NCBI GenBank assembly: GCA_017408915.1
Contig: JAFQTS010000003.1
Location: 1-50,949, forward strand
DNA: 50,949 nt
Direction: 5' to 3'
Origin: Oscillospiraceae bacterium
GTDB lineage: Bacteria; Bacillota; Clostridia; Oscillospirales; Oscillospiraceae
The first letter of the stretch is position 1, and every line of letters begins with the position of its first letter. Positions 5,519 through 27,542 of this stretch are shown in pieces. The notes beneath the pieces are model-generated. The model made no database searches and had not been told where the DNA came from. It saw only the letters and a program-made list of their open reading frames with translations. A program made the translations under genes and the position numbers.

Positions 5519-6997
5519 ATGGATAACCGTTTTGTGGTCGCTTACGACCTTGGTACCAGCGGCGTAAAAGTTGCGCTGGTGAACATGTCCGGCGAGGTTC
5601 TCGCCGTCGCTACCGCATCCTACCCTCTGTACGTGGAGCACGAGAGCTGGGCAGAGCAGGATCCTGATCTGTATTGGGATCGTGTCTGTCAGGTGACGAA
5701 GGAGGTCATGGCCAAGAGTGGCTTTGACCCCGCCAATGCAGCAGGTATGGCTTTTTCCACCATGTGGAAGGGCATTATCCCGGTGGACAAGGACGGAAAT
5801 GTGCTGCACAATTCTATCATTTGGCTGGATTGCCGCAGTGTTGAGCAGGCGGCCCGACTCAACGCCCGCTTTGGCGAGGGTCGGTTTGTCCCCAGTGACT
5901 ATTGGCCCAAGCTTTTGTGGCTGAAGGACAATAAGCCTGAGATTTTGGATAAGGCAGAGATGGTGTTGGAGGTCAACTCCTTCCTGAAGTGGAAGGCCAC
6001 CGGCGCTGCCGCTGTGGATATTTCCAACAACTTTATCCACTCCTTTGATGGCGATTTAGATTCCTTCTACAGCGATGTGATGGAGTTCTGCGGTATTGAC
6101 AAGAGCAAGTTCCCCGGTTGGGTGGAGGCATCCGACTTTGTCGGCAATGTTACTGAAAAGGCTGCCGTCGAGTTGGGTTTGGCACCCGGCATCCCTGTTT
6201 TTGGCGGCTGCAGTGATATTTCTGCCATCGCCATCGGCTCGGGTTGCTCCGATTTGGGCCGCGTCCATCTGTATTTCGGATCCTCCGGCTGGATCGGACA
6301 CTGCCTGCCTCACGCATCCAACGAGCTGTACAACTCCCCCTTTGACACAAAACGTGACATTTCCATCGACAGTATGCAGGCCATTGGTCTGGCTTTCAAC
6401 TGGGTGGTGGACCGTCTTTATGGCCACGAGCATAAGGAAATGGGCGACGGTGTGTACGACCTCATCAATACCGAGATTGCGCAGATCGGCCCCGGCAGCG
6501 ACGGGGTGATCGCTACACCTTGGTTCTACGGTGAGCGTCCTCCCATGCTCAGCGAAAACTCCCGAGGCTCCTTTATGAATCTGGCGGCACCTCATGACCG
6601 CCGTCATATGGCCCGTGCCATCCTCGAGGGTGTGTGCTATACCTTGAAAATGCGGAGCCTCTACCGTCAGAAGACGAAGGGCACCGTTTGGCCCCCTGCG
6701 GTGCTCAACGCCGTAGGCGGCGGTTCCTTGAGCGACCCGTGGATGCAGATGCTGGCAGACATTATGAATGTTCCTGTCTGCGTTCCATATTCTCCTCGCC
6801 ATGCCGGCGCAGTCGGCACAGCTTACTGCGTATTTGTCGGCCTTGGTGTGTGCAAAGATTTGAATGAGGTTGCACAAACTATGCGCTTTGAGCGCCGCTT
6901 TGAGCCTAATCCTGAGGCTGTAAAGGCTTACGAGGCTGGTTTTGCAGCATTCCTGCATACTTGTGGACTGGATCAGTCCATGGAAGGAGATGTTTGA
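5519..6997 (+). CDS. FGGY-family carbohydrate kinase (copy 1)
   Basis: Predicted cytoplasmic sugar or polyol kinase, 492 residues, normal for the FGGY family (xylulokinase, glycerol, erythritol, AI-2 kinases). The N-terminal phosphate-binding loop is AYDLGTSGVKVAL; GCSDISAIAIGSG carries the catalytic-base Asp (Asp233); the C-terminal domain has NAVGGGSLSDPWMQMLADI and HAGAVGTAYC. It sits 19 bases after the transporter ATPase and its last codons contain the ribosome site of the M81 gene, so the three parts are one transcription unit. A paralogue with the catalytic Asp at the same residue number lies at 24464. The substrate is not predictable; closest overall feel is xylulokinase-like. Confidence 0.9.
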   Translation: MDNRFVVAYDLGTSGVKVALVNMSGEVLAVATASYPLYVEHESWAEQDPDLYWDRVCQVTKEVMAKSGFDPANAAGMAFSTMWKGIIPVDKDGNVLHNSIIWLDCRSVEQAARLNARFGEGRFVPSDYWPKLLWLKDNKPEILDKAEMVLEVNSFLKWKATGAAAVDISNNFIHSFDGDLDSFYSDVMEFCGIDKSKFPGWVEASDFVGNVTEKAAVELGLAPGIPVFGGCSDISAIAIGSGCSDLGRVHLYFGSSGWIGHCLPHASNELYNSPFDTKRDISIDSMQAIGLAFNWVVDRLYGHEHKEMGDGVYDLINTEIAQIGPGSDGVIATPWFYGERPPMLSENSRGSFMNLAAPHDRRHMARAILEGVCYTLKMRSLYRQKTKGTVWPPAVLNAVGGGSLSDPWMQMLADIMNVPVCVPYSPRHAGAVGTAYCVFVGLGVCKDLNEVAQTMRFERRFEPNPEAVKAYEAGFAAFLHTCGLDQSMEGDV

Positions 6998-6998
6998 G

Positions 6999-8516
6999 AT
7001 GAATGAGCGTAAGCGTGTGTTGGTCTGCGAATTTCATCAGGAGAGCGACACGTTTAACCCCCTGATATCCACGATTGAAAACTGTTTTGAGAAGGTGCGC
7101 TGCGCCTACGGAAAAGATGCCTACGATAAGGCCAAGCTGGTACCCTGTGCGCTGCATGGTATGATCGATGCAGTGGAGGAGTTCGGCGGTGAGCTGATCC
7201 TCTCCCAGTCCCTCTTCGGCGGCAGCGGCGGTCGTGTGGCTGACGATGTGCTGAACTTCCTGAAGGAGAAGGTCAGTGCCGACATCGCCAAATACAGCCC
7301 TCTTGATGCGGTTTTCGTCTCTCTCCACGGTGCTTGCTGCACCGAGAGCGAGGATGACGCCTCCGGTGCGCTTCTGTCTTACATCCGCGAGTTGGTGGGT
7401 CCCGATGTGGTCATGGCCGCCTCCTGCGACCTCCACGCGAATACCACGCCTTTGATGTTGGCTTCCGCCGACATCATCTGCGGCTATCAGACGTATCCCC
7501 ATGTGGATTTCTACGAGACCGGCTATCGTGCTGCCTCTCTTGGTATGCGTAAGCTGGCAGGGGAGAAGGTGTGCCTTGCCGCCACCACCATTCCCATGAT
7601 GACGCCTCCCGCCGGCTACACCACCCAGAGCGAGCCTTTCAAGGGCGTGGTGGATTATGCCAAGTCCTTGGTTGCCGACGGAACGCTGCAGGATTACACC
7701 ATCTTCAATGTTCAGCCCTGGCTGGATATTGAGACCATCGGCTGCACCATTATTGCTGTTGCTGAGGACGAGTCCGTTGCCTGCCGCTATGCCGACGAGC
7801 TGGCGCAGCGCTTCTTCGCGATCCGCGACGGTCTGTGGCCCGAACTGATGAGCGTGGACGAGATCATTGATCTGGCTGAGGATCCCAACACCCCCAAGCC
7901 TGTGATCTTGGTGGACAGTGCCGACTCTCCCAACGGCGGTGCCGTGGGTGACAGTGCTGAGGTTGCCCTCCGTCTGCAGGCACGCAACGCTACCATCCGC
8001 AGCGGTATGTTCGTCAAGGATCCCGAGGCAGCCAAGAAGGCTTTCGAGGTGGGCGTTGGCAACAAGGCCTATTTCGAGGTGGGTAACAAGTTCACCCCCG
8101 ATATGCCCGCACCCTTGAAGGGCGAGGCTGTGGTGCGTTCCCTCCACGACGGCGCCTTCCTGCAGGAAGGTCCTGCCGGCAAGTTCCAGCCCTGCAACGT
8201 GGGTCTGGCTGCCGTGCTGAGTTTTGGCTTTGCCGATATTATGGTCTGCGAGCAGCCCGGTGCTTCCGGCGATCCTCAGATCCTGCGCCACTTCGGTATT
8301 GAGCCCAAGGTGTACGACCTCATCGTGGTGAAGGCCAACACGTCTTTCCGCGTGCCCTACAGTGCCTTTGCCACTGTTATGTGCAACGCTGACACCCCCG
8401 GTGCCGGTACGTCCAATCTCAAGCGTCTTACCTGGCGCAAGCTGCCTAAGAACTATTATCCCTTCGACTTGGCGGAGGACTATGTCCCCGCTCCGGCCAC
8501 CATCCGTCGTGGATGA
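6999..8516 (+). CDS. M81 family (MlrC-like) metallohydrolase (copy 1)
   Basis: Predicted zinc hydrolase of the M81/DUF1485 family, 505 residues, with the N-terminal MlrC domain and the C-terminal MlrC_C domain. Asp144-x-His146 (in CDLHAN) and His168 (in YPHVDFYETGYRA) have the same D-x-H-x21-H spacing as the metal ligands described for microcystinase MlrC; His110 lies in SLHGACCTESEDDASGA. ATG 6999 is chosen because GGAAGGAG (6982-6989) is 9 nt away; it starts one base after the kinase stop (TGA 6995-6997). The family is named for peptide cleavage, but most members lie in catabolic clusters with unknown substrates, so peptidase activity is not assured. It ends in RRG and runs directly into a remnant sequence. 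Confidence 0.88.
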   Translation: MNERKRVLVCEFHQESDTFNPLISTIENCFEKVRCAYGKDAYDKAKLVPCALHGMIDAVEEFGGELILSQSLFGGSGGRVADDVLNFLKEKVSADIAKYSPLDAVFVSLHGACCTESEDDASGALLSYIRELVGPDVVMAASCDLHANTTPLMLASADIICGYQTYPHVDFYETGYRAASLGMRKLAGEKVCLAATTIPMMTPPAGYTTQSEPFKGVVDYAKSLVADGTLQDYTIFNVQPWLDIETIGCTIIAVAEDESVACRYADELAQRFFAIRDGLWPELMSVDEIIDLAEDPNTPKPVILVDSADSPNGGAVGDSAEVALRLQARNATIRSGMFVKDPEAAKKAFEVGVGNKAYFEVGNKFTPDMPAPLKGEAVVRSLHDGAFLQEGPAGKFQPCNVGLAAVLSFGFADIMVCEQPGASGDPQILRHFGIEPKVYDLIVVKANTSFRVPYSAFATVMCNADTPGAGTSNLKRLTWRKLPKNYYPFDLAEDYVPAPATIRRG

Positions 8517-8616: not shown

Positions 8617-8645
8617 TTCTCTCTGTACCAACCAAAAGGAATCAC

Positions 8646-8683
8646 AAAAAAACACACCATCGTCTTTGATGGTGTGTTTTTTT
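8646..8683. terminator. Bidirectional terminator between M81 copy 1 and exodeoxyribonuclease III
   Basis: Inverted repeat AAACACACCATC / GATGGTGTGTTT with a 6-nt loop (8662-8667), flanked by an A-run on the left and a T-run on the right, so it gives a U-tract on either strand. It lies between convergent genes and serves both. Confidence 0.9.
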
Positions 8684-8692
8684 ATTTTGCAG

Positions 8693-9442
8693 TCATGTCA
8701 GTTCGATCAGCACAGGGCAGTGATCGCTGCCGAAGATCTCACCGTGGATCTCCGCCGCAGCGATGCGGGGGAGCAAACGCTCGGACACAAGGAAATAGTC
8801 AATGCGCCAGCCTGCGTTCCGCTCCCGTGCCTTGAAGCGGTAGGACCACCAAGAATACTCCACTGCATCGGGATGGAGACGGCGGAAAGTGTCGGCAAAG
8901 CCGCTGTCCAGCAGCGTTTTCAGCGCCGTCCGCTCCTCGATGGTGAAGCCTGCGTTCCGCTCGTTGGCCTTGGGGTTCTTAATGTCCATCTCCGTGGCCG
9001 CCACGTTGAGGTCGCCGCAGTAAATGACGGGCTTGAGGTTATCCAACTCCATCAAATACTCCCGCAGCGCCGCCTCCCACTCCAAACGGTAGTCAAGACG
9101 CTTCAAACCATCCTGGGAGTTGGGGGTATAGCAGCACACGAGGTAGAACTCCTCGTACTCCGCCGTAATAATGCGCCCTTCATGGCGGTGGACATCCTCG
9201 CCAAAGTCGTAAGTCACATTGATGGGCTCAGTGCGGGTAAAGATGGCCGTGCCCGAATAGCCCGCCTTGTCGGCGCTGTTCCAAAAGCGGTGGAAGCCCT
9301 CCAGCTCAAAATCCGCCTGTTCGGGGCGCATTTTCGTCTCCTGCAAGCAGATGATGTCGGGGGCAAGTCCTGCCATAGACTCCAAAAACCCCTTGCCCAA
9401 TGCGGCGCGGAGACCGTTTACATTCCAAGATACCAGTCGCAT
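8693..9442 (-). CDS. exoA: Exodeoxyribonuclease III
   Basis: AP endonuclease / 3'-5' exonuclease of base-excision repair, 249 residues, typical length. Family blocks in order: LVSWNVNGLRAAL at the N-terminus, CLQETKM with the metal-binding Glu, YCGDLNVA, the RNAGFT motif, YSWWSYRFKARERNAGWRIDY, and SDHCPVLIEL with the catalytic Asp-His near the end. It starts only 6 bases after the alcohol dehydrogenase stop and has no clear ribosome site of its own, so it is probably read from the same mRNA. A repair gene is an odd partner for the oxidoreductases; position rather than function probably links them. Confidence 0.95.
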   Translation of the reverse strand: MRLVSWNVNGLRAALGKGFLESMAGLAPDIICLQETKMRPEQADFELEGFHRFWNSADKAGYSGTAIFTRTEPINVTYDFGEDVHRHEGRIITAEYEEFYLVCCYTPNSQDGLKRLDYRLEWEAALREYLMELDNLKPVIYCGDLNVAATEMDIKNPKANERNAGFTIEERTALKTLLDSGFADTFRRLHPDAVEYSWWSYRFKARERNAGWRIDYFLVSERLLPRIAAAEIHGEIFGSDHCPVLIELT

Positions 9443-9448
9443 AGCCGT

Positions 9449-10618
9449 TTACCGATAGGAGCGCTCATAGATCCCCACGCAATCCTCGTCAGTGAGGGGG
9501 CTGGGGTCTAAGTCGAACTGAGAACCCATAGTGGCGCGGGCATCGTGTGCCATGCGGGGGAACTCGTCGGGGGTGATGCCGTAGTCGCTCATCTTCAGCT
9601 GATCCACATCGCAGGCCTTCTGCAGTTTCACCAACTCCTCCACGAAGTCCATGGGATCGCTGGCGTCGGTCTTGCCCAGCGCCTTGGCCATGGCGATAAG
9701 CCGCTCGTCACAGGCGTGACGCTCGGCGAAGATCTTGTACCACTCGCGGGAGATCATAATAAGACCTGCACCGTGAGCCAGCTGGGGATGAAAGGCGCTG
9801 AGGGAATGTTCCAGCGGATGCTTGGAGCAGGTGGCACTCAGCATCATGGCATAGCCCGAGAGCATATTGGCAAAGGCCATGCCCTCGCGCGCCTCCATAT
9901 CGGTGCCGTCGCGGTAAGCGCGGGCGAGATACTTGCCCACATTCTCAATGGCGGTCAAACACACCATGTCGGACATGGGATTGTGGGTATTGGAGAGGTA
10001 GACCTCCGTTGCGTGGAACAAGGCGTCGAAGCCCTGATAGGCGGTAAACTGGGGCGGTACCGACACCATCAGCTCGGGATCGACGATGGCCAGCACAGGC
10101 GTGATGCTCTCGTGGACAAGACCTGTCTTTTCCTGGGTGTCGGGATTGGAGATGACGCCGCCGAAATCCACCTCGCTGCCTGTGCCTGCCGTGGTGGTGA
10201 TGGCCACCACGGGGAGAGAGTCGTTGGGCGCTACAGCACGCTTGGAAGTAGGTGCTGCCACATAATCCCACACATCCCCCTCGTTGACTGCCATCAGTGC
10301 CATGGCCTTGGCCGCGTCCATGACGCTGCCGCCGCCCAGTGCCACCACGAAGTCGCAGCCGTTGTCCTTACAAAAGGCTGCGCCCTCCATGACCACGTTG
10401 CGGGTGGGATTGGCGCCCACCTTGTCAAAGACCACCGTTTCGACGCCTGCCAGCTTCAGCTGTTCCAGCGTCCGATCCAGCGCGCCGCTTTTCTTGGAGG
10501 AATTGCCGTTGGAGATGACCACCATGGCCTTATTGCCGGGCATCTTGCGTTTGCCCAGCTCGTTCAATGCACCTGCGCCGATAAACACGCGGGTGGGGAG
10601 ATAGATCATATACCTCAT
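9449..10618 (-). CDS. Iron-containing alcohol dehydrogenase
   Basis: Group III (Fe-dependent) alcohol dehydrogenase, 389 residues, NAD(P)-linked interconversion of an alcohol and aldehyde or ketone. Visible features: the nucleotide-binding GGGSVMDAAKAMA, the ITTTAGTGSEVD motif, and the metal-ligand region CSKHPLEHSLSAFHPQLAHGAGL, with histidines at the expected intervals. Start ATG is preceded by AGGAG. It lies 22 bases downstream of the aldo/keto reductase, probably co-transcribed. It resembles butanol dehydrogenase-like and 1,3-propanediol dehydrogenase-like proteins; substrate unknown, but aldehyde reduction next to an acetoin- or 2-oxoacid-dehydrogenase complex would be a plausible electron sink. 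Confidence 0.93.
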   Translation of the reverse strand: MRYMIYLPTRVFIGAGALNELGKRKMPGNKAMVVISNGNSSKKSGALDRTLEQLKLAGVETVVFDKVGANPTRNVVMEGAAFCKDNGCDFVVALGGGSVMDAAKAMALMAVNEGDVWDYVAAPTSKRAVAPNDSLPVVAITTTAGTGSEVDFGGVISNPDTQEKTGLVHESITPVLAIVDPELMVSVPPQFTAYQGFDALFHATEVYLSNTHNPMSDMVCLTAIENVGKYLARAYRDGTDMEAREGMAFANMLSGYAMMLSATCSKHPLEHSLSAFHPQLAHGAGLIMISREWYKIFAERHACDERLIAMAKALGKTDASDPMDFVEELVKLQKACDVDQLKMSDYGITPDEFPRMAHDARATMGSQFDLDPSPLTDEDCVGIYERSYR

Positions 10619-10640
10619 GGGCTCACTCCTATCCTGCCCT

Positions 10641-11480
10641 TTAGGCCAGCGTCATGAACATCTCCACGATCTCGGGATCGTAGTGCTTGAAGAACACCGT
10701 CTGCTGCTGATCCAGTGCGCGGATGGCGTTCATCTCCTCCTCGGTCAGAGCAAAGTCGAAGATGTTGATATTCTCTGCCATGCGCTCCTTGCGGGAGGAC
10801 TTGGGGATCACCACCACGTCGCTCTGGACGAGGAAACGGAGGATGGTCTGTGCGGCGGTCTTGCCGTACTTCTCACCGATACCGCAGATGACGGGATTCT
10901 GCAGCAGGCCATTCTTGCCCTCACCCAAGGGAGCCCATGCCTCGTGGACGCAGCCGTACTTGGTCATGTACTCGTGGTCGATCTTGCGCTGATGGATAAT
11001 GTGGGTCTCGATCTGGTTGACCATGGGCTTGATCTCGGAGAAGTGATGGAGGTCAATGAGACGATCGGGGAAGAAGTTGCTGACGCCAATGGCACGGAGC
11101 TTGCCAGCCTTGTAGGCCTTCTCCATGGCACGCCAAGTGCCGTAGTAGTCGCCGAAAGCCTGATGGATCAGCATGAGATCGAGATAATCGGTCTTCATTT
11201 TCCGCAGCGTCTCGTCGATGGACTTCATGGCCTTCTCTTCGCCTGCTTCGCTGATCCAGATCTTGGAGGTCAGGAACAGCTCCTCGCGAGCCACGCCGGA
11301 CTTGACCCATGCCTCGCCAACGCCTTCTTCGTTTTCGTACTGCTGTGCCGTATCGATGGAGCGATAGCCCACCTCGATCGCGTCGCTGACACAGCGAGCG
11401 CACTCCTCGGGAGAGATCAGATACACGCCGTAACCTACCTTAGGCATCTGCACGCCGTTGTTCAAAGTGATGTACTCCAT
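10641..11480 (-). CDS. Aldo/keto reductase
   Basis: NADPH-dependent carbonyl reductase of the AKR superfamily (AKR5-like, 2,5-diketogluconate reductase/YvgN type), 279 residues. The catalytic tetrad can be seen: Asp and Tyr in YRSIDTAQQYENEEGVG, Lys in FLTSKIWI, and His in LMLIHQAFGDYYGTW; the C-terminal coenzyme site includes VVVIPKSSRKERMAENI. An AAGGAGG ribosome site precedes ATG. It heads the AKR-ADH-exoA unit, with a palindrome-bearing control region in front. The substrate is not readable. Confidence 0.93.
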   Translation of the reverse strand: MEYITLNNGVQMPKVGYGVYLISPEECARCVSDAIEVGYRSIDTAQQYENEEGVGEAWVKSGVAREELFLTSKIWISEAGEEKAMKSIDETLRKMKTDYLDLMLIHQAFGDYYGTWRAMEKAYKAGKLRAIGVSNFFPDRLIDLHHFSEIKPMVNQIETHIIHQRKIDHEYMTKYGCVHEAWAPLGEGKNGLLQNPVICGIGEKYGKTAAQTILRFLVQSDVVVIPKSSRKERMAENINIFDFALTEEEMNAIRALDQQQTVFFKHYDPEIVEMFMTLA

Positions 11481-11539
11481 AGTTGTTCCTCCTTGATGAT
11501 GTATTTGTTTGTGGTTTCGTAATTTCTTCTAATTTCACT

Positions 11540-11555
11540 ATACTATATATAGTAT
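11540..11555. promoter_or_regulatory. 16-bp perfect palindrome upstream of the aldo/keto reductase
   Basis: ATACTATATATAGTAT is its own reverse complement and lies 60 bases upstream of the aldo/keto reductase start, downstream of the convergent-side end of the DeoR gene. On the minus strand it includes TATAGT, a possible -10 element, but I see no convincing -35. It could be an operator overlapping the promoter; the binding protein is unknown. Confidence 0.45.
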
Positions 11556-11598
11556 TATGATTCCGTTATCCTGCTCTTTCGCCCATCGGGGAGAGGGG

Positions 11599-12396
11599 TC
11601 AGACGTCCTCTTCTTCGTCGGGCTCGTCCACTGCGGGTGCGAGGATCAGCTCCAGATTGCGCCACTTGCTCAAACCCTCGCGGAACTCACGGCTGAGATT
11701 CTCGTCGGATACCACCACATCAATGTCGTTAAAGGTGCACACGGAGGCAAAAGCGTTAGTGCCGAATTTGGCGCTGTCCGCCACCAGCACCGTCTGATCG
11801 GCTCGCTTGATGATAGCTTGCCGCACGATGGCCTCTTCGCTGTTGTAATCGGAAATACCGTGTTCCAGCGTCACACCGCCTGCGCCGATAAAGGCGCGAT
11901 CCACAAAGAATTGCTGCAGTGCGTCCGTCGTCACCTTGCCGTACATAGAAAGCTCATCGGAGTTGAGCCGACCGCCGAGACAGTACACCGTTACCTGCGT
12001 CCCTGCCAGCTCGTTCATGATGGGCAGGGAATTGGTCAGCACCGTAATGCCGCTGATGTTGCTCAGATGACGGGCGATTTCCAAGGTAGTAGAGCCGATA
12101 TCGAGGATGATGGTTTCACCGGAGTTGACGAGGGAGGCAGCTGCCCGTCCGATAGACGACTTCTGCGAGCGGCGCACATGGGCGTGGGGCGCTTGGTGCA
12201 GCCCTGCGGTATTGCCGCCCAAAAGGATGGCGCCGCCGTAAATACGCTTAAGCTGCTCTGTGTCCTGTAAATACTCCAAATCGCGGCGTGCCGTCTCGTT
12301 GGAAACGGAGAAGCGCCGGGAAATATCGGAGATTTTAATGATCTTATCCTTGCGCAGGATCTCCATAATAATAGCATGTCGTTCTTTTGCCAGCAT
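11599..12396 (-). CDS. DeoR/GlpR-family transcriptional regulator
   Basis: Repressor of 265 residues with an N-terminal helix-turn-helix (KIIKISDISRRFSVSNETAR, about residues 18-37, then RDLEYLQDTEQLKRIYGGAI) and a C-terminal DeoR sensor domain (DIGSTTLEIARHLS, then VDRAFIGAGG) that senses sugar phosphates. ATG 12396 is preferred over the longer frame from 12510 because GGAGGT lies 7 nt before it. It is divergent from the ribose-type ABC transporter operon, across a region with an inverted repeat over a promoter, and upstream of the AKR-ADH genes on the same strand. It is the natural candidate for controlling either or both, with a phosphorylated product of the FGGY kinases as possible inducer. 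Confidence 0.92.
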   Translation of the reverse strand: MLAKERHAIIMEILRKDKIIKISDISRRFSVSNETARRDLEYLQDTEQLKRIYGGAILLGGNTAGLHQAPHAHVRRSQKSSIGRAAASLVNSGETIILDIGSTTLEIARHLSNISGITVLTNSLPIMNELAGTQVTVYCLGGRLNSDELSMYGKVTTDALQQFFVDRAFIGAGGVTLEHGISDYNSEEAIVRQAIIKRADQTVLVADSAKFGTNAFASVCTFNDIDVVVSDENLSREFREGLSKWRNLELILAPAVDEPDEEEDV

Positions 12397-12877: not shown

Positions 12878-12964
12878 ACAGAAAATGTGGCGGCGGGATT
12901 GTGCCTGTTTTACCCAGCGTCCCCGTGCTGCGCTGCAAATAAAAAGGTGAGTTTGTTTGTTCCC

Positions 12965-20073: not shown

Positions 20074-20096
20074 CATCGTACCAAGGAGGAATCGAT

Positions 20097-21695
20097 TTGG
20101 CACAGAAAGTGATCGTCCCCCGTCTGGGACAAACGATGACCGAGGGCACTGTTGCCCGCTTCTACGTTAAGGACGGGGATAGTGTCCAGGCGGACACCAA
20201 TATTTACGAACTGGAATACGACAAGTCCACCGCCCCCATCCCCGCCAAGAAGGCCGGCACCATCCGTCTGCTGGTTGCAGAAGGCGCCGTGGTGCCCGTG
20301 GGTCAGCCCGTGGCCGTGGTTTTGGAAGATGGCGAGACGCTGGAGAGCGTCCAGTCCGGCGGCGCCTCCGCGGTAGCTAAGGAGACCCCTGCTCCTGCAG
20401 CAGCTCCCGCTGCTGCTCCTGCCCCCGTCGCCGCCGCTGCCGCTCCCGCCGCCAAGAGTGCCTACTCTGCCGCACCTCGTATTAAGGCGCTGGCAAAGGA
20501 GATGGGCATTGATCTGGCCGCAGTGGTGCCTGCCAACGGCAAGCGCATCACCCAGGAGGATCTGGAGGCCTACGCCGCCGCTCAGAAGGCTGCTGCCGCC
20601 CCCGCTAAGAGCGCTTACTCCGCCGCACCTCGTATCAAGGCGCTGGCAAAGGAGATGGGCATTGATCTGGCCGCAGTGGTGCCTGCCAACGGCAAGCGCA
20701 TCACTCAGGAGGATCTGGAGGCTTATGCCGCCGCTCAGAAGGCCGCTCCCGCTGCTGAGGCTGCACCCGCTGCAGCACCTGCTACCGGCGGTTACAAGGC
20801 ATCTCCCTTGGCCCGTAAGGTCGCCGAGAGCCTTGGCGTTGACATCAGCAAGGTCGTCCCCAAGGATGGCAAGCGTGTCAACCGCGATGACGTGGAGGCT
20901 TATGCCGCCGCGCAGAAGAGCGACACTTCCGTCAACTTCCACGGCGGCCCCGAGTGCGGCACTACCTGCCGCCGCTGCAACTGGACTGCCCCCGAGGCAC
21001 CCACTGCTGATCGCCGCGAGAAGATGAGCGGCATGCGTAAGGTGATCTCTCAGCGCATGACGGAGAGCGCCAACCTGTATCCTTCTGCTACCCTGACCAC
21101 CAAGGTGGATATGACTGAGCTTCTCAAGGTTCGCCAGCAGCTCAACAAGGAGCTGGCTGCCCGCGGCGTGAAGCTGACCGTCACCGACCTGCTGGTGAAG
21201 GCCACTGCCAAGGCCCTGCGTGAGAATGAGATCATCAACACCACGCTCGAGGGTGATGAGATCGTCTATCGCGCCGATGTGAACATCGGCATCGCTGTGG
21301 CACTGGACAATGGTCTGGTGGTTCCCGTGGTGCGCAATGCTGATAAGCTGAGCCTGCCCGAGATCAATGCTGAGAGCAGCCGCCTCATTAAGAAGGCAAA
21401 GGGCGGCGGTCTGTCCGGCGCTGACATGGCCGATGGTACGTTCTCCATCACCAATCTGGGCATGGTGGGTATCGATGCATTCACCCCCATCATCAATATG
21501 CCTCAGAGCGCCATTCTGGGCATCGGCCGTACCGTGGAGGAGCCCGCTGTGTATAACGGCGAGATCACCATCCGCTCCAAGGCCGTGCTGTCCATTACCC
21601 ACGACCACCGCGTTATCGACGGTTATCCTGCAGCACTGTTCCTGCAGTCCATGACCAAGTACATCGAGAATCCCGTCCTGCTTCTGCTGGACTGA
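20097..21695 (+). CDS. Dehydrogenase complex E2 acyltransferase with three E3-binding domains
   Basis: Lipoamide acyltransferase, 532 residues, starting at TTG 20097 with AAGGAGGA in front. Order of domains: one lipoyl domain (1-77, lipoylated Lys43 in EYDKST), an Ala/Pro linker, three peripheral-subunit-binding domains (about 120-168, 171-219, 232-277), a short segment with Cys287, Cys291 and Cys294, and the catalytic domain with the active-site block DHRVIDG near the C-terminus. E2 proteins normally have one E3-binding domain. Domains 1 and 2 are almost identical in DNA with a 153-bp period; the third has diverged. Acts as the core of the complex formed with E1 and E3. Confidence 0.93.
   Translation: MAQKVIVPRLGQTMTEGTVARFYVKDGDSVQADTNIYELEYDKSTAPIPAKKAGTIRLLVAEGAVVPVGQPVAVVLEDGETLESVQSGGASAVAKETPAPAAAPAAAPAPVAAAAAPAAKSAYSAAPRIKALAKEMGIDLAAVVPANGKRITQEDLEAYAAAQKAAAAPAKSAYSAAPRIKALAKEMGIDLAAVVPANGKRITQEDLEAYAAAQKAAPAAEAAPAAAPATGGYKASPLARKVAESLGVDISKVVPKDGKRVNRDDVEAYAAAQKSDTSVNFHGGPECGTTCRRCNWTAPEAPTADRREKMSGMRKVISQRMTESANLYPSATLTTKVDMTELLKVRQQLNKELAARGVKLTVTDLLVKATAKALRENEIINTTLEGDEIVYRADVNIGIAVALDNGLVVPVVRNADKLSLPEINAESSRLIKKAKGGGLSGADMADGTFSITNLGMVGIDAFTPIINMPQSAILGIGRTVEEPAVYNGEITIRSKAVLSITHDHRVIDGYPAALFLQSMTKYIENPVLLLLD
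20454..20746 (+). repeat. 153-bp tandem duplication inside the E2 gene
   Basis: Two in-frame copies start at 20454 and 20607 (period 153 bp, 51 codons). Each encodes KSAYSAAPRIKALAKEMGID and the rest of an E3-binding domain; only scattered third-position changes distinguish them in the core, and the stretch from the second Lys codon of each (AAGGCGCTGG...) is identical for more than 60 bases. This points to a recent duplication or ongoing conversion. Confidence 0.9.
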
Positions 21696-21724
21696 TTTCC
21701 GGTAGTAGCTAAGGAGGAATCAAA

Positions 21725-23449
21725 ATGGCACAGAAAGTAATTGTCCCCCGTCTGGGACAGACTATGACCGAGGGTACTGTGGCTCGCTTCTTCGTGAAGG
21801 ACGGCGACAAGGTCACCGAGGGTACCCCCATTTATGAACTGGAATACGATAAGTCCACGGCTCCCGTTGCTGCCAAGCGCGGCGGTACTGTCCGCCTGCT
21901 GGTGAGCGAGGGTACTGTGGTGAAGCTGGGCAACCCCGTGGCAGTGATTCTGGAAGATGGCGAGACGCTGGAGAGCGCCGGTTTCGGTGATGCTCCCGCT
22001 GCTGCCGCTCCCGCCGCTGCTGCACCCGCTCCCGCTGCAGCGCCTGCTGCTGCCGCTGCCAGCTACGATGCCGACGTGATCGTCATCGGCGGCGGCCCCG
22101 GCGGCTACGTCTGCGCCAACAAGCTGGGCATGCTGGGCAAGAAGGTCATCCTCGTTGAGCGCGACCGCGTTGGCGGCACCTGCCTCAACCGTGGCTGCAT
22201 CCCCACCAAGGCTCTGCTCCAGAGCGCTGAACTGTATGAGAGCGTGAAGAACGGCGCTGCAATGGGCGTCGAGGTGGAGGGCCTGAAGGCCAATCTGGCA
22301 CAGGTGGACGCTTTCCGCGAGAAGATCGTCAATGGTCTTGTCCGCGGTGTTGAGAGCCTGCTGCGCGCCCGCAAGGTGGAGACCGTTCGCGGTCAGGCCA
22401 GCTTCGTGGATGCCAAGACCATCAAGGTGGTGGACGGCACCAATGAGCGCAAGCTCACTGCTGAGAATATCGTCATTGCCACCGGCTCCAAGACCATGAA
22501 TCCCCCCATCCCCGGTCTGGACGGCAAGAACGTCCTCACCAGCACCGAGGCACTCCATGTCACCAACCTGCCCGAGAGCGTTGCCATCATCGGCGGCGGC
22601 GTCATCGGTATGGAGCTGGCAGTGGTCTACGCCAACTTCGGCGCTAAGGTCACCGTCATCGAGGCACTGGATAAGCTGGTTGCCATCATGGACGGCGAAG
22701 TCTCTGATGAGTGCGCACGCCTGCTGAAGGACAAGATGGATATCCGTCTGTCCGCCCGTGTCTCCTCCGTGTCCGATAAGGGCGACAAGAAGGTCGTTAC
22801 CTTTACCGAGAACGGTCAGGAGCAGCAGGTGGAGGCCGATTGGGTGCTGGCAGCTCTGGGCCGCGGCCCCGAGTTTGACGGTCTGGGTCTGGAGAACATC
22901 GGCATCAAGGCCGATCGCAAGAGCGGCATCCCCGTGGACGAGAACTTCATGACCTCCGTCCCCGGCGTGTACGCCATCGGCGACTCCAACGGCATGGGCA
23001 TGCTGGCTCACGTTGCTTCCGCTGAGGGTATCACCGTGGCTGAGCATCTGTGCGGCCATGTTTCCAACATCAACATGAAGGTGGTTCCCAGCTGCATCTA
23101 CTGCGAGCCCGAGATCGCCTCTGTCGGTATGACCGAGGAGCAGGTGAAGGCCGCCGGTATCCCCTACAAGACCGGCAAGTTCCCCTTCCGCGCCAACGGT
23201 CGTTCCATGATCGTGGGTCAGCCTGTTGGCTTTGTGAAGATCATCGGTCAGGCCGAGACCAACGAGGTGCTGGGCGTCCACATCATTGGCCCCCACGCCA
23301 CCGAGATGATCGGCGAGTGCGCTGCCGTGATGAAGCTGGAGGGCTGCGTCGAGGATATCGCGCAGACCATCCACGCACACCCCACCGTCAGCGAGTCCAT
23401 TATGGAAGCTGCCGAGTCCTACATGGGCGGCAGCATCCATAGTCTGTAA
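21725..23449 (+). CDS. lpdA: Dihydrolipoamide dehydrogenase (E3) with N-terminal lipoyl domain
   Basis: Flavoprotein that reoxidises the lipoyl groups of E2, 574 residues. Residues 1-77 are a lipoyl domain (Lys43 in EYDKST) very like that of the E2 gene, then an Ala/Pro linker, then the FAD/NAD fold: VIGGGPGGYVCANK, the redox-active CLNRGC (Cys153, Cys158), NAD site IIGGGVIGME, ATGSKTMNPPIPGLDG, and the C-terminal HAHPTVSE with His552 and Glu557. AGGAGG precedes the ATG. Lipoyl-bearing E3 proteins occur in Gram-positive acetoin and pyruvate complexes, so this is uncommon rather than new. Confidence 0.95.
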   Translation: MAQKVIVPRLGQTMTEGTVARFFVKDGDKVTEGTPIYELEYDKSTAPVAAKRGGTVRLLVSEGTVVKLGNPVAVILEDGETLESAGFGDAPAAAAPAAAAPAPAAAPAAAAASYDADVIVIGGGPGGYVCANKLGMLGKKVILVERDRVGGTCLNRGCIPTKALLQSAELYESVKNGAAMGVEVEGLKANLAQVDAFREKIVNGLVRGVESLLRARKVETVRGQASFVDAKTIKVVDGTNERKLTAENIVIATGSKTMNPPIPGLDGKNVLTSTEALHVTNLPESVAIIGGGVIGMELAVVYANFGAKVTVIEALDKLVAIMDGEVSDECARLLKDKMDIRLSARVSSVSDKGDKKVVTFTENGQEQQVEADWVLAALGRGPEFDGLGLENIGIKADRKSGIPVDENFMTSVPGVYAIGDSNGMGMLAHVASAEGITVAEHLCGHVSNINMKVVPSCIYCEPEIASVGMTEEQVKAAGIPYKTGKFPFRANGRSMIVGQPVGFVKIIGQAETNEVLGVHIIGPHATEMIGECAAVMKLEGCVEDIAQTIHAHPTVSESIMEAAESYMGGSIHSL

Positions 23450-23484
23450 TTAACTAGTCAACTAACGAAAGGTAGGATACCACT

Positions 23485-24363
23485 ATGAAGCGTAAGATCG
23501 GTTTTGTCGGCGTTGGTAACATGGGTAAGGGCATCTGCCACAACCTGATTCTGGCCGGTAACGATGTCAGCATCTTCGACGTGATGGCCGACAATATGAA
23601 GCGTTTTGAGGGCGAGGCCTATATGTGCTCCAGCGCCAAGGAAGTCTTTGAACGCAGCGAAGTCACCTTTATGTCCCTGCCCAACTCCGCCGTCATCGAG
23701 GCCACCATGGCACAGTTCTTCGAGGCCGGCGTCGAGGGCAAGGTCGTTGTGGACCTGTCCACCAGCTATCCCACCTCCACCAAGGAGCTGGCAAAGAAGA
23801 TGAAGGATGGCGGCGGCGCCATGATCGACTCTCCTCTGCTGGCCGGTCCTCAGGAAGCTTGGGACGGCACGCTGCCCGTCGTGGTTGCCGGTGATAAGGA
23901 AGTCATCGACAAGTATGCCGATATGTTCGAGAGCTACAGCGGCTCTTGGAAGTATGTGGGCGAGAGCGGCACTGGCCACCTGATGAAGCTGGCTCAGAAC
24001 TGGGCAGGTCTGCTGCAGGCCATTATGTACGCTCAGCTCTATCCCGTCATGGCTGCTCACGGCTTCGCTCCCGATAAGCTGTATGACGTGCTGAACACCG
24101 AGTTCTATGACACCTGGTTCTTCCAGTTCTACTCCAAGAAGTACATCGAGAAGAACTATCATATGGACTTCGCTCTGAATCTGGGTCTGAAGGATCTGAC
24201 CTACATGAAGAAGCTCTGCGACGAGGTTGGCGTTCCCGGCTTCATGCTGGATGGCGCAATCGACCTGTGCCGTGTGGCGCTGAAGGAAGGTAAGGATCGC
24301 GGCATCGTTCAGGATATGTCCCACGTTGCTGATACCATGTATCAGTATGTTGGTCTGGAATAA
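23485..24363 (+). CDS. NAD(P)-dependent beta-hydroxyacid dehydrogenase (3-hydroxyisobutyrate dehydrogenase-like)
   Basis: Oxidoreductase of 292 residues. N-terminal Rossmann motif GFVGVGNMGKGICHNL; the substrate-binding block reads DSPLLAGPQEAWDGTLPVVVAG where DAPVSGGxxGAxxGTL is usual; the catalytic Lys lies in GTGHLMKLAQNW. Members oxidise 3-hydroxy acids such as 3-hydroxyisobutyrate, tartronate semialdehyde, glycerate-type or sulfolactaldehyde compounds. The altered substrate block (LLAGPQEAW) suggests a ligand different from the well-known members. It sits between E3 and kinase copy 2 in the same operon. Confidence 0.9.
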   Translation: MKRKIGFVGVGNMGKGICHNLILAGNDVSIFDVMADNMKRFEGEAYMCSSAKEVFERSEVTFMSLPNSAVIEATMAQFFEAGVEGKVVVDLSTSYPTSTKELAKKMKDGGGAMIDSPLLAGPQEAWDGTLPVVVAGDKEVIDKYADMFESYSGSWKYVGESGTGHLMKLAQNWAGLLQAIMYAQLYPVMAAHGFAPDKLYDVLNTEFYDTWFFQFYSKKYIEKNYHMDFALNLGLKDLTYMKKLCDEVGVPGFMLDGAIDLCRVALKEGKDRGIVQDMSHVADTMYQYVGLE

Positions 24364-24407
24364 GCCGAATCGTATCTTTAATCAGAATGTAGTTTGAACC
24401 ACCATGA

Positions 24408-24440
24408 GCAGGGCGCTGTGCAAGTGCCGGCGCCCTGCTT
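24408..24440 (+). promoter_or_regulatory. GC-rich hairpin upstream of kinase copy 2
   Basis: GCAGGGCGC (24408-24416) pairs with GCGCCCTGC (24430-24438) around a 13-nt loop, followed by TTCTGT rather than a full T-run. It may be a weak attenuator between the dehydrogenase genes and the second kinase/M81 module. Confidence 0.5.
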
Positions 24441-24463
24441 CTGTGCTGTCAGGAGAAAACGCT

Positions 24464-25945
24464 ATGAAAAATACATACATTGCCTCCTATGACTTTGGCA
24501 CCAGCGGTGTCAAGGCCGTGCTGGTAACGGTAGACGGCGCTGTGCGCAGCCATGCCACCGCATCCTATCCGCTGTTGACGCCTCGCAGCGGCTGGGCAGA
24601 GCAGGAGCCCGATGCCTATTGGCGCGGCGTGTGCCAAGCCACCCACCAAGCCCTTGCTGCCGGCGATGTGAAGCCGGAGGAAGTGGTCGGTGTCGTGTTT
24701 GGCACCATGTGGAAGGGCATCATCCCCATCGACAAGGATGGTAACGTGCTCCACAACTGTATGATCTGGCTGGACGCCCGCGGTGAGAAGCAGGCCAAGG
24801 TGCTCAACGAGCGGCTCAAGACCGACCGTTTCTGCGCGCAGGACTACTGGGCCCGCCTTATGTGGCTGCGGGACGAGCATCCCGACATTTACGCCGCCGC
24901 CGACTGCATTCTGGAAAACAATGCGTATCTGAAATTTAAAAGTACCGGCAAGAAGGGTGTAGACTTGACCAACTGTCTCGTCAGCTCCCCCAAGGCCGAT
25001 CTTGAACGGGAATATGCTGCCATTATGTCGGCTGCAGAGCTGGACATGGCAAAATTCCCCCCCATCATGATGCCCTGGGAGACCCAAGGTGGTCTGACGG
25101 CACAGGCAGCGCAGGAACTGGGCCTCTGTGAAGGCACTCCCGTGTTCGGTGGCTGCGGTGATATCCCTGCCATCACCATCGGCTCCGGCAGCAGTGCCAT
25201 GGGAGCAGCCCATATCTACTTAGGTTCTTCCGGTTGGCTGGGCATCACTGCCCCCGAGCGGAAAGAGGATGTAGGCGAGGTGTATCAGTCTCTTGACCGT
25301 GAAAAAGAGATCCTCCTCTACACCATGCAGTCTGCCTGCATGAGTTTTGACTGGACCATCCGTCAGTTCTACAACGCCGAGTGGAAAGAGCTTGGCGGCG
25401 GTGTCTACGATGTGGTGAACCGCGACCTGACCGAAGTGCCTCCCGGAAGCGGCGGCATGCTGGCAGCACCGTGGCTCCACGGCGAGCGTCCGCCTCTGTC
25501 GGATAAGGCCCGCGGCGTCTTCTTCAATCTGGACGCCAATCACGATCGGCGTTACTTTGTGAACGCCATGCTGGAGAGTATTTGTTATATGCTGCGCTGG
25601 AAGCTGGAAGCGTACCGCCGCGAGTCGGGGAAGGATATCCCCATGCTCCGTGTGGTAGGCGGCGGCACAGGCAGCGCCCATTGGATGCAGATGCTGTCCG
25701 ATATTCTGCAGCTTCCCATTGAAGTCCCTGCCGATTCCCGCCACGCCGGGGCCATCGGTACGGCCTATTGTGCCCTCATCGGCCTTGGGAAGTGCTCTGA
25801 CTTTGAAGATATCAACCGTATGATCCGTATCGAGAAGCGCTACGAGCCTCGTCAGGATCACATGGCTGTTTACGACAAAATGTATCACCTGTTCCAGCGT
25901 CTGTATCCGACGCTGCAGGAGCTGTATCAGGAACTGAACGGCTAA
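24464..25945 (+). CDS. FGGY-family carbohydrate kinase (copy 2)
   Basis: Paralogue of the kinase at 5519, 493 residues. Phosphate-binding loop SYDFGTSGVKAVL, shared GTMWKGIIPIDKDGNVLHN block, catalytic Asp233 in GCGDIPAITIGSG, and C-terminal VVGGGTGSAHWMQMLSDI. ATG 24464 is chosen over the longer frame from 24404 since AGGAG lies just before it and the N-terminus then matches copy 1. The two proteins are clearly similar but much less so than the two M81 proteins, so they may act on different substrates or the kinase copies evolve faster. Confidence 0.9.
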   Translation: MKNTYIASYDFGTSGVKAVLVTVDGAVRSHATASYPLLTPRSGWAEQEPDAYWRGVCQATHQALAAGDVKPEEVVGVVFGTMWKGIIPIDKDGNVLHNCMIWLDARGEKQAKVLNERLKTDRFCAQDYWARLMWLRDEHPDIYAAADCILENNAYLKFKSTGKKGVDLTNCLVSSPKADLEREYAAIMSAAELDMAKFPPIMMPWETQGGLTAQAAQELGLCEGTPVFGGCGDIPAITIGSGSSAMGAAHIYLGSSGWLGITAPERKEDVGEVYQSLDREKEILLYTMQSACMSFDWTIRQFYNAEWKELGGGVYDVVNRDLTEVPPGSGGMLAAPWLHGERPPLSDKARGVFFNLDANHDRRYFVNAMLESICYMLRWKLEAYRRESGKDIPMLRVVGGGTGSAHWMQMLSDILQLPIEVPADSRHAGAIGTAYCALIGLGKCSDFEDINRMIRIEKRYEPRQDHMAVYDKMYHLFQRLYPTLQELYQELNG

Positions 25946-25993
25946 GGAAACAAAAAAGAGAGAAAAAAGAACAGCGCAGTCATTTGCGCCCAT

Positions 25994-26010
25994 ATGGACA
26001 TAGTGTCCAT
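25994..26010 (+). promoter_or_regulatory. Small hairpin just before the M81 copy 2 ribosome site
   Basis: ATGGACA and TGTCCAT pair around TAG, and the bases after it (CCATGGAAGGAG) match the same position before M81 copy 1, where GGACT-GGATC-AGTCC forms a comparable hairpin inside the kinase 3' end (6965-6979). The shared text shows that the upstream sequence was duplicated with the gene; a role in translation control is possible. Confidence 0.45.
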
Positions 26011-26027
26011 GGAAGGAGCTGTTATCA

Positions 26028-27542
26028 ATGAGTGAACGTAAACGCGTGTTAATCTGTGAGTTCCATCAAGAGAGCGACACGTTTAATCCTCTGATATCTA
26101 CCCTTGAAAATTGTTTTGAGAAGGTGCGCTGTGCCGAGGGTCAGGAGGCCTATGACATGGCCAAGCTTGTCCCCTGCGCACTGCATGGTATGATCGACGC
26201 TGTGGAGGAGTTCGGCGGTGAGCTGATCCTCTCCCAGTCCCTCTTCGGCGGCAGCGGCGGTCGTGTGGCTGACGATGTGCTGAACTTCCTGAAGGAGAAG
26301 GTCAGTGCCGACATCGCCAAGTACAGCCCTCTTGATGCCGTGTTCGTATCCCTCCACGGTGCTTGCTGCACCGAGAGCGAGGATGACGCCTCCGGCGCAT
26401 TGCTGGCGTACATCCGTGGCTTGGTAGGCGAGAAGATGGTTATGGCCGCCTCCTGCGACCTCCACGCCAACGCCACCCCCAAGATGCTCAGCAATGCTGA
26501 CATCATCTGCGGCTATCAGAGCTATCCCCATGTGGATTTCTATGAGACGGGCTATCGCGCCGCCTCTCTGGGTATGCGCAAACTGGCAGGTGAGAGCGTG
26601 TGCCTCGCCGCTACTACGCTGCCTGTCATGACGCCTCCCGCCGGCTATACCTCCCGTGAGGAGCCCTTTAAGAGTGTTATTGATTACGGCAAGTCCCTCA
26701 TTGCCGATGGCACGCTGCAGGACTTCACCGTGTTCAACGTGCAGCCTTGGCTGGATATCGACACCATCGGCAGCACCATGATCGCGATCGCTGCTGATGA
26801 GGCTGTCGCCTGCCGCTGCGCCGATGAACTGGCACAGAAATTCTTCGCCATTAAGGACGAGCTGTGGCCCGACCTGATGAGCGTGGACGAGATCATCGAT
26901 TTGGCAGAGAATCCCACCACCCCCAAGCCTGTGATCTTGGTAGACAGCGCCGACTCTCCCAACGGCGGCGCCGTGGGCGACAGTGCCGAGGTAGCTCTGC
27001 GCCTGCAGGCACGGAACGCCACCATCCGCAGTGGTATGTTCGTCAAGGACCCCGAGGCCGTCAAGAAGGCCTTTGAAGTCGGTGTGGGCAACAAGGGCTA
27101 TTTCGAAGTGGGCAACAAGTTCACCCCCGATATGGGCGAACCCTTGAAGGGTGAGGCCGTGGTGCGTTCCCTCCACGATGGTTCTTTCCTGCAGGAAGGC
27201 CCTGCCGGTAAGTTCCAGCCCTGCAATGTGGGCTTTGCCGCTGTGTTGAGCTTCGGCTTTGTGGACATCATGGTCTGTGAGCAGCCCGGCGCTTCCGGCG
27301 ATCCTCAGATCCTGCGTCACTTCGGTATTGAACCCAAGGTCTACGATCTCATTGTGGTGAAGGCCAACACCTCTTTCCGTGTGCCGTACAGTGCCTTTGC
27401 CAGCGCTATGTATAACGCCGATACGCCCGGTGCCGGTACATCGAATTTGAAGCGTCTCGTGTGGCGTAAGCTGCCCAAGAACTTCTATCCCTTCGACTTG
27501 GCAGAGGACTATGTCCCCGCTCCTGCCACCATCCGCCGTTGA
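26028..27542 (+). CDS. M81 family (MlrC-like) metallohydrolase (copy 2)
   Basis: 504 residues, collinear with copy 1 over the whole length, no indel seen in the N-terminal half. The metal-ligand set is kept (Asp and His of CDLHAN, His of YPHVDFYETGYRA). Residues from about 59 to 123 are nearly identical to copy 1, including 119 nucleotides without a single difference. GGAAGGAG lies at good distance from ATG 26028. Last gene of the operon, closed by the terminator at 27622. Role as for copy 1: a zinc hydrolase of unknown substrate. Confidence 0.88.
   Translation: MSERKRVLICEFHQESDTFNPLISTLENCFEKVRCAEGQEAYDMAKLVPCALHGMIDAVEEFGGELILSQSLFGGSGGRVADDVLNFLKEKVSADIAKYSPLDAVFVSLHGACCTESEDDASGALLAYIRGLVGEKMVMAASCDLHANATPKMLSNADIICGYQSYPHVDFYETGYRAASLGMRKLAGESVCLAATTLPVMTPPAGYTSREEPFKSVIDYGKSLIADGTLQDFTVFNVQPWLDIDTIGSTMIAIAADEAVACRCADELAQKFFAIKDELWPDLMSVDEIIDLAENPTTPKPVILVDSADSPNGGAVGDSAEVALRLQARNATIRSGMFVKDPEAVKKAFEVGVGNKGYFEVGNKFTPDMGEPLKGEAVVRSLHDGSFLQEGPAGKFQPCNVGFAAVLSFGFVDIMVCEQPGASGDPQILRHFGIEPKVYDLIVVKANTSFRVPYSAFASAMYNADTPGAGTSNLKRLVWRKLPKNFYPFDLAEDYVPAPATIRR

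Follow-up and report, generated by a model that had tools for sequence, protein, structure and literature searches.

Two separate operons built around a recurrent FGGY kinase-M81 hydrolase gene pair in an Oscillospiraceae bacterium

Results

A gene for an FGGY-family kinase lies directly beside a gene for an M81 zinc hydrolase at two places in the window, that is, the whole 50,949-nucleotide stretch of Oscillospiraceae DNA analysed here. As counted from sequence, this adjacency occurs in related genomes well above chance and, since the pair is found again in other gut bacteria, it is to be read as a real degradation system. Judged from gene arrangement, the architecture is that of two separate operons (modules 1 and 2) and not of the single pathway, bracketed by the two pairs, that a first-pass annotation had described. 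All gene families named in that annotation were found as open reading frames with Pfam or NCBIfam domain matches, and its inventory was accurate save for an exonuclease III gene, which it had left out. The features are as follows.

28-8516, plus strand: module 1 (DppABCDF, FGGY kinase K1, M81 hydrolase A1)
28-1455, plus: DppA, module 1 importer (Pfam matches of the importer as a whole: SBP_bac_5, BPD_transp_1, ABC_tran with oligo_HPY)
1573-2523, plus: DppB, module 1 importer
2381-3418 (open reading frame), plus: DppC, module 1 importer
3437-4462, plus: DppD, module 1 importer
4468-5499, plus: DppF, module 1 importer
5519-6997, plus: FGGY kinase K1, W-[KR] clade, motif MWKG (Pfam FGGY_N/FGGY_C; tree; motif)
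6999-8516, plus: M81 zinc hydrolase A1 (Pfam DUF1485 and MlrC_C)
8644-8685, minus: hairpin resembling a terminator, following module 1 (consensus scan, which is no evidence of function; a shorter form on the plus strand spans 8658-8674)
8693-9442, minus: exonuclease III gene, between module 1 and the parts of module 2
9449-10618, minus: iron-containing alcohol dehydrogenase (Pfam Fe-ADH)
10641-11480, minus: aldo/keto reductase (Pfam Aldo_ket_red)
11599-12510, minus: DeoR-type regulator (Pfam HTH_DeoR and DeoRC)
12843-12871, plus: promoter-like site upstream of module 2 (TTGACA-17-TACATT; consensus match only)
13043-27542, plus: module 2 (ribose-type importer, E1/E2/E3, 3-hydroxyacid dehydrogenase, K2, A2), with the divergent DeoR-aldo/keto reductase-alcohol dehydrogenase set alongside
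13043-14125, plus: ribose-type permease, module 2 importer (Pfam matches of the importer as a whole: BPD_transp_2, Peripla_BP_4 and ABC_tran)
14218-15285, plus: ribose-type binding protein, module 2 importer
15409-17997, plus: fused permease-ATPase, module 2 importer
18044-19018, plus: E1 alpha (Pfam/NCBIfam)
19057-20031, plus: E1 beta (Pfam/NCBIfam)
20097-21695, plus: E2 (Pfam/NCBIfam)
21725-23449, plus: E3 with lipoyl domain (Pfam/NCBIfam)
23485-24363, plus: 3-hydroxyisobutyrate-type (3-HIBADH-type) dehydrogenase (Pfam NAD_binding_2/NAD_binding_11; no NCBIfam model above its own cut-off)
24464-25945, plus: FGGY kinase K2, W-[KR] clade, motif MWKG (Pfam FGGY_N/FGGY_C; longest open reading frame from 24404)
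26028-27542, plus: M81 zinc hydrolase A2 (Pfam DUF1485 and MlrC_C; 89% identical to A1)
27622-27664: hairpin resembling a terminator, following module 2 (stem of 19 pairs; from the consensus scan alone)

For K2, the start at 24464 given by the first-pass annotation is preferable to that of the longest frame, because residue 1 of K1 aligns there. Promoter-like consensus sites numbered 11 in the region against 8.9 expected, and Rfam (gathering threshold) and tRNA scans gave no match across the window.

The pair was then considered from the kinase side. Compilation of the counts revealed that (i) 11 of 13 W-[KR] kinases adjoin an M81 gene, three of these kinases being the window genome's own, (ii) among relatives, with the same three included, 8 of 10 clade kinases do so, (iii) elsewhere in the class, all three motif-bearing kinases adjoin M81, in each case the only M81 of its genome, and (iv) kinase and M81 distances are correlated (r = 0.94 for 13 pairs; 0.81 for all 14). 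Co-inheritance of the two genes is demonstrated at the level of sequence. Adjacency in relatives, whose absence the first-pass annotation had named as refuting its reading, was upheld. When clade kinases were compared with other FGGY genes for M81 adjacency in four genomes, a table tallied by hand gave a Fisher p of 0.0007. A peptide-pattern scan of genome contigs yielded only 8 loci, its patterns being narrow. M81 genes do occur elsewhere alone or with other partners, as would be expected if a peptidase with no link to the sugar kinase had come to lie beside it by chance; the kinase-first counts, the co-divergence, the motif link and the Fisher test make such a coincidence scarcely credible.

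Both hydrolases belong to the M81 (MlrC) family, with DUF1485 and MlrC_C scores far above the Pfam cut-offs. The matches to MlrC (PDB 7YLQ; E 1.1e-41) and to the M81 structure 3IUU (E 1.1e-59) span nearly the full length, and the MlrC zinc ligands E39, D167, H169 and H191 (the last printed once as H196 in the MlrC paper) correspond to E15, D144, H146 and H168 in A1, residues shared without exception by A1-A3. By contrast, A1 has Leu at the column of the MlrC general base, E70, which is thus not retained, and the NCBIfam MlrC model gave A1 and A2 only 141 and 139 of 999 bits; an assignment as microcystinase MlrC proper was rejected on these two grounds. The partner also differs, being an FGGY kinase here and mlr genes for MlrC. 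Dpp-M20-M81 loci, which combine an ABC importer with M81 and M20, are known from Proteobacteria (L059, Rhizobium; L075, Sulfitobacter) and resemble a third kinase-M81 pair, with Dpp and M20 genes, elsewhere in the window's genome; unlike that pair, the Proteobacteria stretches carry no annotated FGGY kinase.

The loss of E70 means that the substrate pocket differs from that of MlrC, and both gene orders are conserved (kinase-M81 at 14 of 17 pair loci; M81-kinase at L036, L039 and L052), so neither step is clearly first. Both points leave room for a scheme in which the intact imported conjugate is phosphorylated before M81 acts on it, the phosphorylated form being the one hydrolysed, as happens in other routes for phospho-conjugates. 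We consider this order unlikely, since many M81 genes of the same clade lack a nearby kinase and M81 thus seemingly needs no phosphorylated substrate.

FGGY_N, FGGY_C and the catalytic Asp column are all present in K1 and K2, which identifies them as FGGY carbohydrate kinases of the fold family of the xylulokinase/gluconokinase branch (PDB 2ITM, 5VM1, 3GBT, 3IFR). The best NCBIfam model was XylB, at 259 (K1) and 256 (K2) bits against a cut-off of 380. The pair kinases form a single clade (support 100/100), and the alignment places Trp-Lys/Arg of the clade at the columns of the xylulokinase Met-His substrate motif, so that the substrate pocket is probably altered, the basic residue occupying the XylB His78 column, while 3IFR itself has Leu-Pro there. 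Xylulokinase was rejected as an identity on the score and on WK replacing MH. A term search of a paper on FGGY evolution (PMC3245297) gave no occurrence of MlrC, DUF1485, peptid-, unknown or uncharacterized.

The first-pass annotation had called the modules duplicated. This applies to the hydrolases (A1 and A2 are 89% identical as protein and 84.6% as DNA, the DNA similarity beginning shortly before the gene and stopping where the gene stops) and not to the kinases, which are 46% identical and fall in different subclades of the tree. In the congener RGIG1691 (L025), blastn showed that window positions 9445-27691 are absent as one 18.2-kb block between xth and ftsZ, with module 1 and both flanks collinear with the window (L025 11685-12427 matching 8702-9444, and 12497-13705 matching 27692-28900). 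Joint inheritance of the modules thus failed, RGIG1691 keeping module 1 without the block; likewise, no match to E1/E2/E3 was seen within the stretches compared around the Dpp-kinase-M81 operons in L029 and L032. A single route for one sugar-amino-acid conjugate, uniting the two modules with the dehydrogenases, could draw on the near-identical M81 copies and on the modules being neighbours. It is weakened by the indel and the separate occurrence of the modules, by the differing kinase subclades and importers, and by the third pair in the genome, and we regard it as quite improbable.

Importer types around the pair vary between loci. A peptide importer, which the first-pass annotation had feeding the first pair, is the commonest type: of the 17 pair loci examined, 6 have Dpp genes. 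M20 peptidases occur at 2 loci, C19 and L029, together with Dpp. LarA was found at three pair loci, transaldolase at two and malic enzyme at one; of 11 strong LarA genes across nine genomes, no more than 2 adjoin a pair. A sugar-amino-acid conjugate as substrate is unproved, and the neighbouring LarA, 3-HIBADH and malic-enzyme genes are more suggestive of hydroxy acids.

E1/E2/E3 also adjoins a kinase-M81 pair in L057/L069, and in L062 it lies close to an M81 gene that lacks a pair-type kinase. In the window's genome, 18044-19018 is the sole E1 alpha match; it falls below the pyruvate dehydrogenase cut-offs (329.7 against 393.9), and E1 beta exceeds that of subfamily PRK09212 (355 against 321). 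Because the genome has two complete PFORs, the complex need not be a house-keeping pyruvate dehydrogenase, and that role seems less likely. With separate E1 alpha and beta, E2 and E3, the set resembles the acetoin dehydrogenase complex (AcoABCL), from which it differs in lying inside an importer-kinase-M81 operon. Relatives of E1 alpha include a first-listed plasmid one (44.6%) with an acetoin reductase gene nearby and, at 44-45%, one labelled pdhA next to glucitol PTS genes. Thiolytic acyl-CoA formation would be consistent with these families.

Acetoin-type E1/E2 genes elsewhere also lie within sugar or polyol operons. Together with the ribose-type importer of module 2, SBP_bac_8 proteins at L033, L037, L052 and L072, and the transaldolases and DeoR regulators at pair loci, this fits operons that degrade plain sugars or polyols (through kinase, transaldolase, dehydrogenases and E1/E2/E3), with M81 acting not as an amidase but on an intermediate derived from sugar, as a lactonase or another kind of hydrolase. 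On the other side, the Dpp and M20 genes fit amides, and the characterised M81 enzyme, MlrC, cleaves an amide bond according to PMC9982164 and PMC12474180. Such a sugar or polyol route seems to us unlikely, too.

Discussion

The reading that we prefer, though tentatively and at a little less than an even chance, is of two independent catabolic operons with a common core of M81 and W-[KR] FGGY kinase, serving import, hydrolysis, phosphorylation and acyl-CoA formation. A hydroxylated acid held in an amide, ester or lactone linkage would enter by the Dpp-type importer (module 1) or the ribose-type importer (module 2), M81 would split the bond in the cytoplasm, and the kinase would phosphorylate the hydroxylated, probably carboxylate-bearing product, whose negative charge its Lys/Arg may sense. 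In module 2, the 3-hydroxyacid dehydrogenase would oxidise a product and the acetoin-dehydrogenase-like complex cleave the resulting keto compound to acyl-CoA, the two modules presumably handling related yet different substrates. Against this preferred reading stand the kinase-less M81 genes of the same clade, the lost general base, the few LarA genes adjoining a pair, the transaldolase neighbours, which fit a ketose phosphate better than an acid, and the fact that one basic residue is not proof of an acidic substrate.

A broader proposal, possible but doubtful, is that W-[KR] kinases constitute a new class phosphorylating hydroxy acids or hydroxyacyl conjugates. With M81 they would form a two-step hydrolyse-and-phosphorylate entry into a so far undescribed pathway by which gut Clostridia use hydroxyacyl amides of dietary or microbial origin. 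Importers would be swappable, and so would the downstream branches, namely LarA/malic enzyme, transaldolase, or a 3-hydroxyacid dehydrogenase with an acyl-CoA-forming complex. In the open-licence papers searched, microcystin breakdown is the only setting in which M81 enzymes have been characterised; here the family is tied to a distinct kinase clade across several Clostridia lineages. No described kinase-M81 pathway appeared among the open-licence literature matches listed. If true, the proposal would give M81 a natural catabolic role, supply annotation with a kinase class that two residues suffice to identify, and open the search for a nutrient imported via at least two, probably three, parallel operons in this bacterium.

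The operons are probably under DeoR control. A DeoR operator common to the pair loci was sought by k-mer comparison of DeoR-side intergenic stretches (11 of 12, the overlong L038 being excluded) and rejected, as word sharing was not above that of shuffles. The word CCACAT/ATGTGG, chosen after its sighting in L025 and L029 and not claimed as an operator, occurs at 8 places in 4 of the 12 stretches, a count reached in one of 200 shuffled versions of the 11. In a DeoR tree of 16 rows, the 10 pair-locus regulators do not form one clade; their distribution takes 3 changes against a shuffled mean of 5.1, and 18-19 of 500 shuffles were as low, which weakly backs their grouping.

Gene content of the two modules

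All gene families named in the first-pass annotation were recovered by Pfam and NCBIfam scans. The FGGY kinases (K1, K2) and the hydrolases of the MlrC-type M81 family (A1, A2) lie in two operons, modules 1 and 2.

Features of the window
28-5499, DppABCDF importer, module 1
5519-6997, FGGY kinase K1, module 1
6999-8516, M81 hydrolase A1, module 1
8644-8685, terminator-like hairpin after module 1 (consensus match only)
8693-9442, exonuclease III (xth), between module 1 and the remaining genes
9449-12510, Fe-ADH, AKR and DeoR genes, in the opposite direction to the modules
12843-12871, promoter-like site upstream of module 2 (consensus match only)
13043-17997, ribose-type importer with fused permease-ATPase, module 2
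18044-23449, E1a/E1b/E2/E3 dehydrogenase complex, module 2
23485-24363, 3-hydroxyisobutyrate-type dehydrogenase (3-HIBADH), module 2
24464-25945, FGGY kinase K2, module 2
26028-27542, M81 hydrolase A2, module 2
27622-27664, terminator-like hairpin after module 2 (consensus match only)
from 27684, minus strand, cell-wall and division genes downstream of module 2

According to Pfam, the ribose-type permease and a double ATPase are fused in a single 862-aa ORF (15409-17997). The E2 gene contains a tandem repeat of 153 bp (20449-20752; two copies matching at 93%), by which the E3-binding domain is duplicated; counting a third copy, Pfam finds three such domains in this one protein.

The kinase-M81 pair is a conserved unit

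M81 is rare: it is present in 16 of the 295 genomes from the order and in 8 of the 32 from the genus, and both figures include the own genome. That genome (1.85 Mb, 78% complete) has three M81 genes, each adjoining an FGGY kinase of the same clade, termed W-[KR] for the Trp-Lys/Arg found where xylulokinase has Met-His. The third pair, on contig C19, is accompanied by Dpp genes and an M20 peptidase. Near it (locus L004, 726-6671) lies the gene for a protein of 1981 aa containing LPD38 and ART-PolyVal domains, probably belonging to a mobile element.

Searches were run from the kinase, which avoids choosing loci through M81. In a set of 40 relatives that includes the own genome, 25 of them from the genus, 10 clade kinases (the own three among them) were found and 8 adjoin M81; by manual count, the same is true of 1 of the 13 remaining FGGY genes in the four genomes concerned (Fisher p 0.0007). 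Across 391 genomes of the class, the threshold of E 1e-95 was passed by four kinases that do not belong to the own genome. Three of these (L070, L071 and L072) have the W-[KR] motif, and each adjoins the sole M81 of its genome; no M81 was found in the 20-kb stretch around the fourth (L073), which lacks the motif. Taken together, 11 of 13 W-[KR] kinases adjoin M81 (8/10 without the own three), the exceptions, L034 (M81 8.5 kb off, on the other strand) and L035, both coming from genome G304. Over all loci read, many of them found through M81, an M81 gene lies within 2.5 kb of 17/19 W-[KR] kinases vs 2/10 other FGGY genes. Kinase and M81 distances are correlated (r 0.94 over 13 pairs and 0.81 over all 14; permutation p 5e-5 each), module 2 being the outlier. 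Judged from these sequence comparisons, the pair is a real unit, and the adjacency first noticed in the window is conserved in related genomes; the observation stands on firmer ground than its reader could have known.

The gene families are already known. As far as the literature searched shows, neither the pair as a conserved unit nor the kinase signature with its link to M81 appears to have been described, and no kinase-M81 pathway turned up among the papers listed. Of papers that mention M81, PMC12474180 concerns microcystin breakdown, and an M81 gene appears in expression tables of PMC8305402 and PMC9608346.

Neighbours of the pair

We compared 17 pair loci: both window pairs, L004, L025 (orthologous to module 1), L026, L029, L032, L033, L036, L037, L038, L039, L052, L057, L070, L071 and L072. 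The kinase precedes M81 in 14, the order being inverted in L036, L039 and L052. A DeoR-type regulator is present at 12 of the 17; module 1 and L026 start at contig ends. Importers differ, with full Dpp sets at six loci (module 1, L004, L025, L029, L032, L070), the ribose-type importer at module 2, SBP_bac_8 binding proteins at L033, L037, L052 and L072, and a branched-chain-amino-acid type at L036. Further partners are a class-V aminotransferase (L029, L032, L070), M20 (L004, L029), a LarA-type racemase (L026, L036, L072), malic enzyme (L036) and transaldolase (L033, L057). Dpp proteins of the module-1 type in L029 and L032 match their window counterparts at 71-82% identity, above the kinase (53-56%) and M81 (57-58%) next to them.

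Different histories of the two modules

The proposal that the modules are duplicates held for M81 only: A1 and A2 show 89% protein identity, and their DNA agrees at 84.6% across 1541 bp that begin shortly before the gene and reach its end, while K1 and K2 share only 46% and differ in tree position. K2 clusters with L033 and L057 (support 89/87) and K1 with L025 and L026 (96/94); A2 groups with A1 and L025 (100/100), apart from the M81 of L033/L057. The M81 adjoining K2 is thus of the K1 type, and on these trees module 2 reused a copied M81, not a copied pair.

In RGIG1691 (L025), an Oscillospiraceae MAG from goat caecum, gene order follows the window through module 1, xth, ftsZ and the genes further on (DNA identity 77-90%), and the block 9445-27691 is absent as a whole from this locus. 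The account of a single pathway spanning both modules does not hold in its original form. The pattern would fit a loss in RGIG1691 and equally a gain of the block, and the block could lie elsewhere in that assembly (taken as G322; 66% complete). Since A2 is about as far from the RGIG1691 M81 (85.0%) as from A1 (84.6%), the M81 split looks older than that of the two species.

The dehydrogenase complex

Three genomes of the genus (G000, G304, G321) have both M81 and a separate-subunit E1a, and in all of them the complex lies within ~14 kb of M81. In G308, a fourth with M81, the sole match is a distant E1-like one (31%) located on a different contig, and no E1a match was found in four further M81-bearing genomes of the genus. 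Beyond its pair, L057/L069 has two SDRs, a zinc dehydrogenase, a glyoxalase-like protein and E1/E2/E3; in G304 (L062) a further E1/E2/E3 set is found upstream of DeoR, Dpp and M81 genes that lack a pair-type kinase. The E1a proteins of the window, G321 and G304 are only 44% alike, no nearer than to plasmid relatives; this may mean that the association arose repeatedly, or that it has diverged widely.

Some E1/E2/E3 sets have no M81 close by, in L067 with a ribose-type importer and FGGY, and in L063 and L068 of the same genus with TRAP components (L068: only DctM scanned) and a 3-hydroxyacid dehydrogenase, perhaps an organic-acid route. The window E1a scores below PDH cut-offs, and two complete PFORs are present in the own genome. 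Of the plasmid relatives of this E1a, the first listed lies near an acetoin reductase gene; another near relative, labelled pdhA, stands beside glucitol PTS genes. In unrelated bacteria, acetoin-type E1/E2 genes sit among genes for sugars or polyols: adjoining glucitol PTS genes in Priestia (L078), and together with an SDR, a Gfo/Idh gene and a ribose-type importer in Sinorhizobium (L080).

Active sites and a possible reaction order

The MlrC zinc ligands, as named in PMC9982164, correspond in A1 to E15, D144, H146 and H168, which do not vary among A1, A2 and the third M81 (A3), so that the window M81 proteins are likely zinc hydrolases; the MlrC general base E70 is not kept. The W-[KR] kinases have Trp-Lys/Arg at columns where xylulokinase (2ITM, 5VM1) and gluconokinase (3GBT) have Met-His and 3IFR has Leu-Pro. 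Their catalytic Asp column is kept. His78 of E. coli XylB contacts xylulose, and a basic residue in its column would suit an anionic substrate.

Alpha-hydroxy acids are the substrates of LarA homologues, which include malate racemases and gluconate epimerases (PMC7583248). Together with 3-HIBADH and malic enzyme, LarA neighbours point to hydroxy acids, and M20 and Dpp neighbours, found at pair loci and near M81 in Proteobacteria, to an amide-type bond. On these indications the substrate would be imported, its amide-type bond hydrolysed by M81 and the product phosphorylated by the FGGY kinase; in module 2, oxidation and then acyl-CoA formation would follow. Against this reading, the transaldolase partners suit a ketose phosphate, and of the 11 strong LarA genes that nine genomes contain, 2 adjoin a pair; the W-[KR] clade may serve mixed substrates.

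M81 genes outside the pair

M81 genes of the same clade often stand without a kinase in the fetched stretch (e.g. L011, L017, L021, L030, L031, L053, L062), which also counts against the reading above. Mapped on the M81 tree, adjacency to a clade kinase requires 7 changes (shuffled mean 12.5; 0/500 as low); by this measure, such M81 genes are clustered, not one clade. L009, L016 and L028 combine M81 with DeoR and a related DAO-type flavoprotein (by Pfam in L016, by BLAST cluster in the others), L016 and L028 having an additional Pyr_redox_2 protein nearby; FGGY was not found in these three stretches, that of L016 stopping just after M81. L048 and L050 have M81 genes in tandem (three in L048, two ORFs separating the last two; two in L050), adjoining a distantly related FGGY gene (24-25% identity) encoded on the opposite strand.
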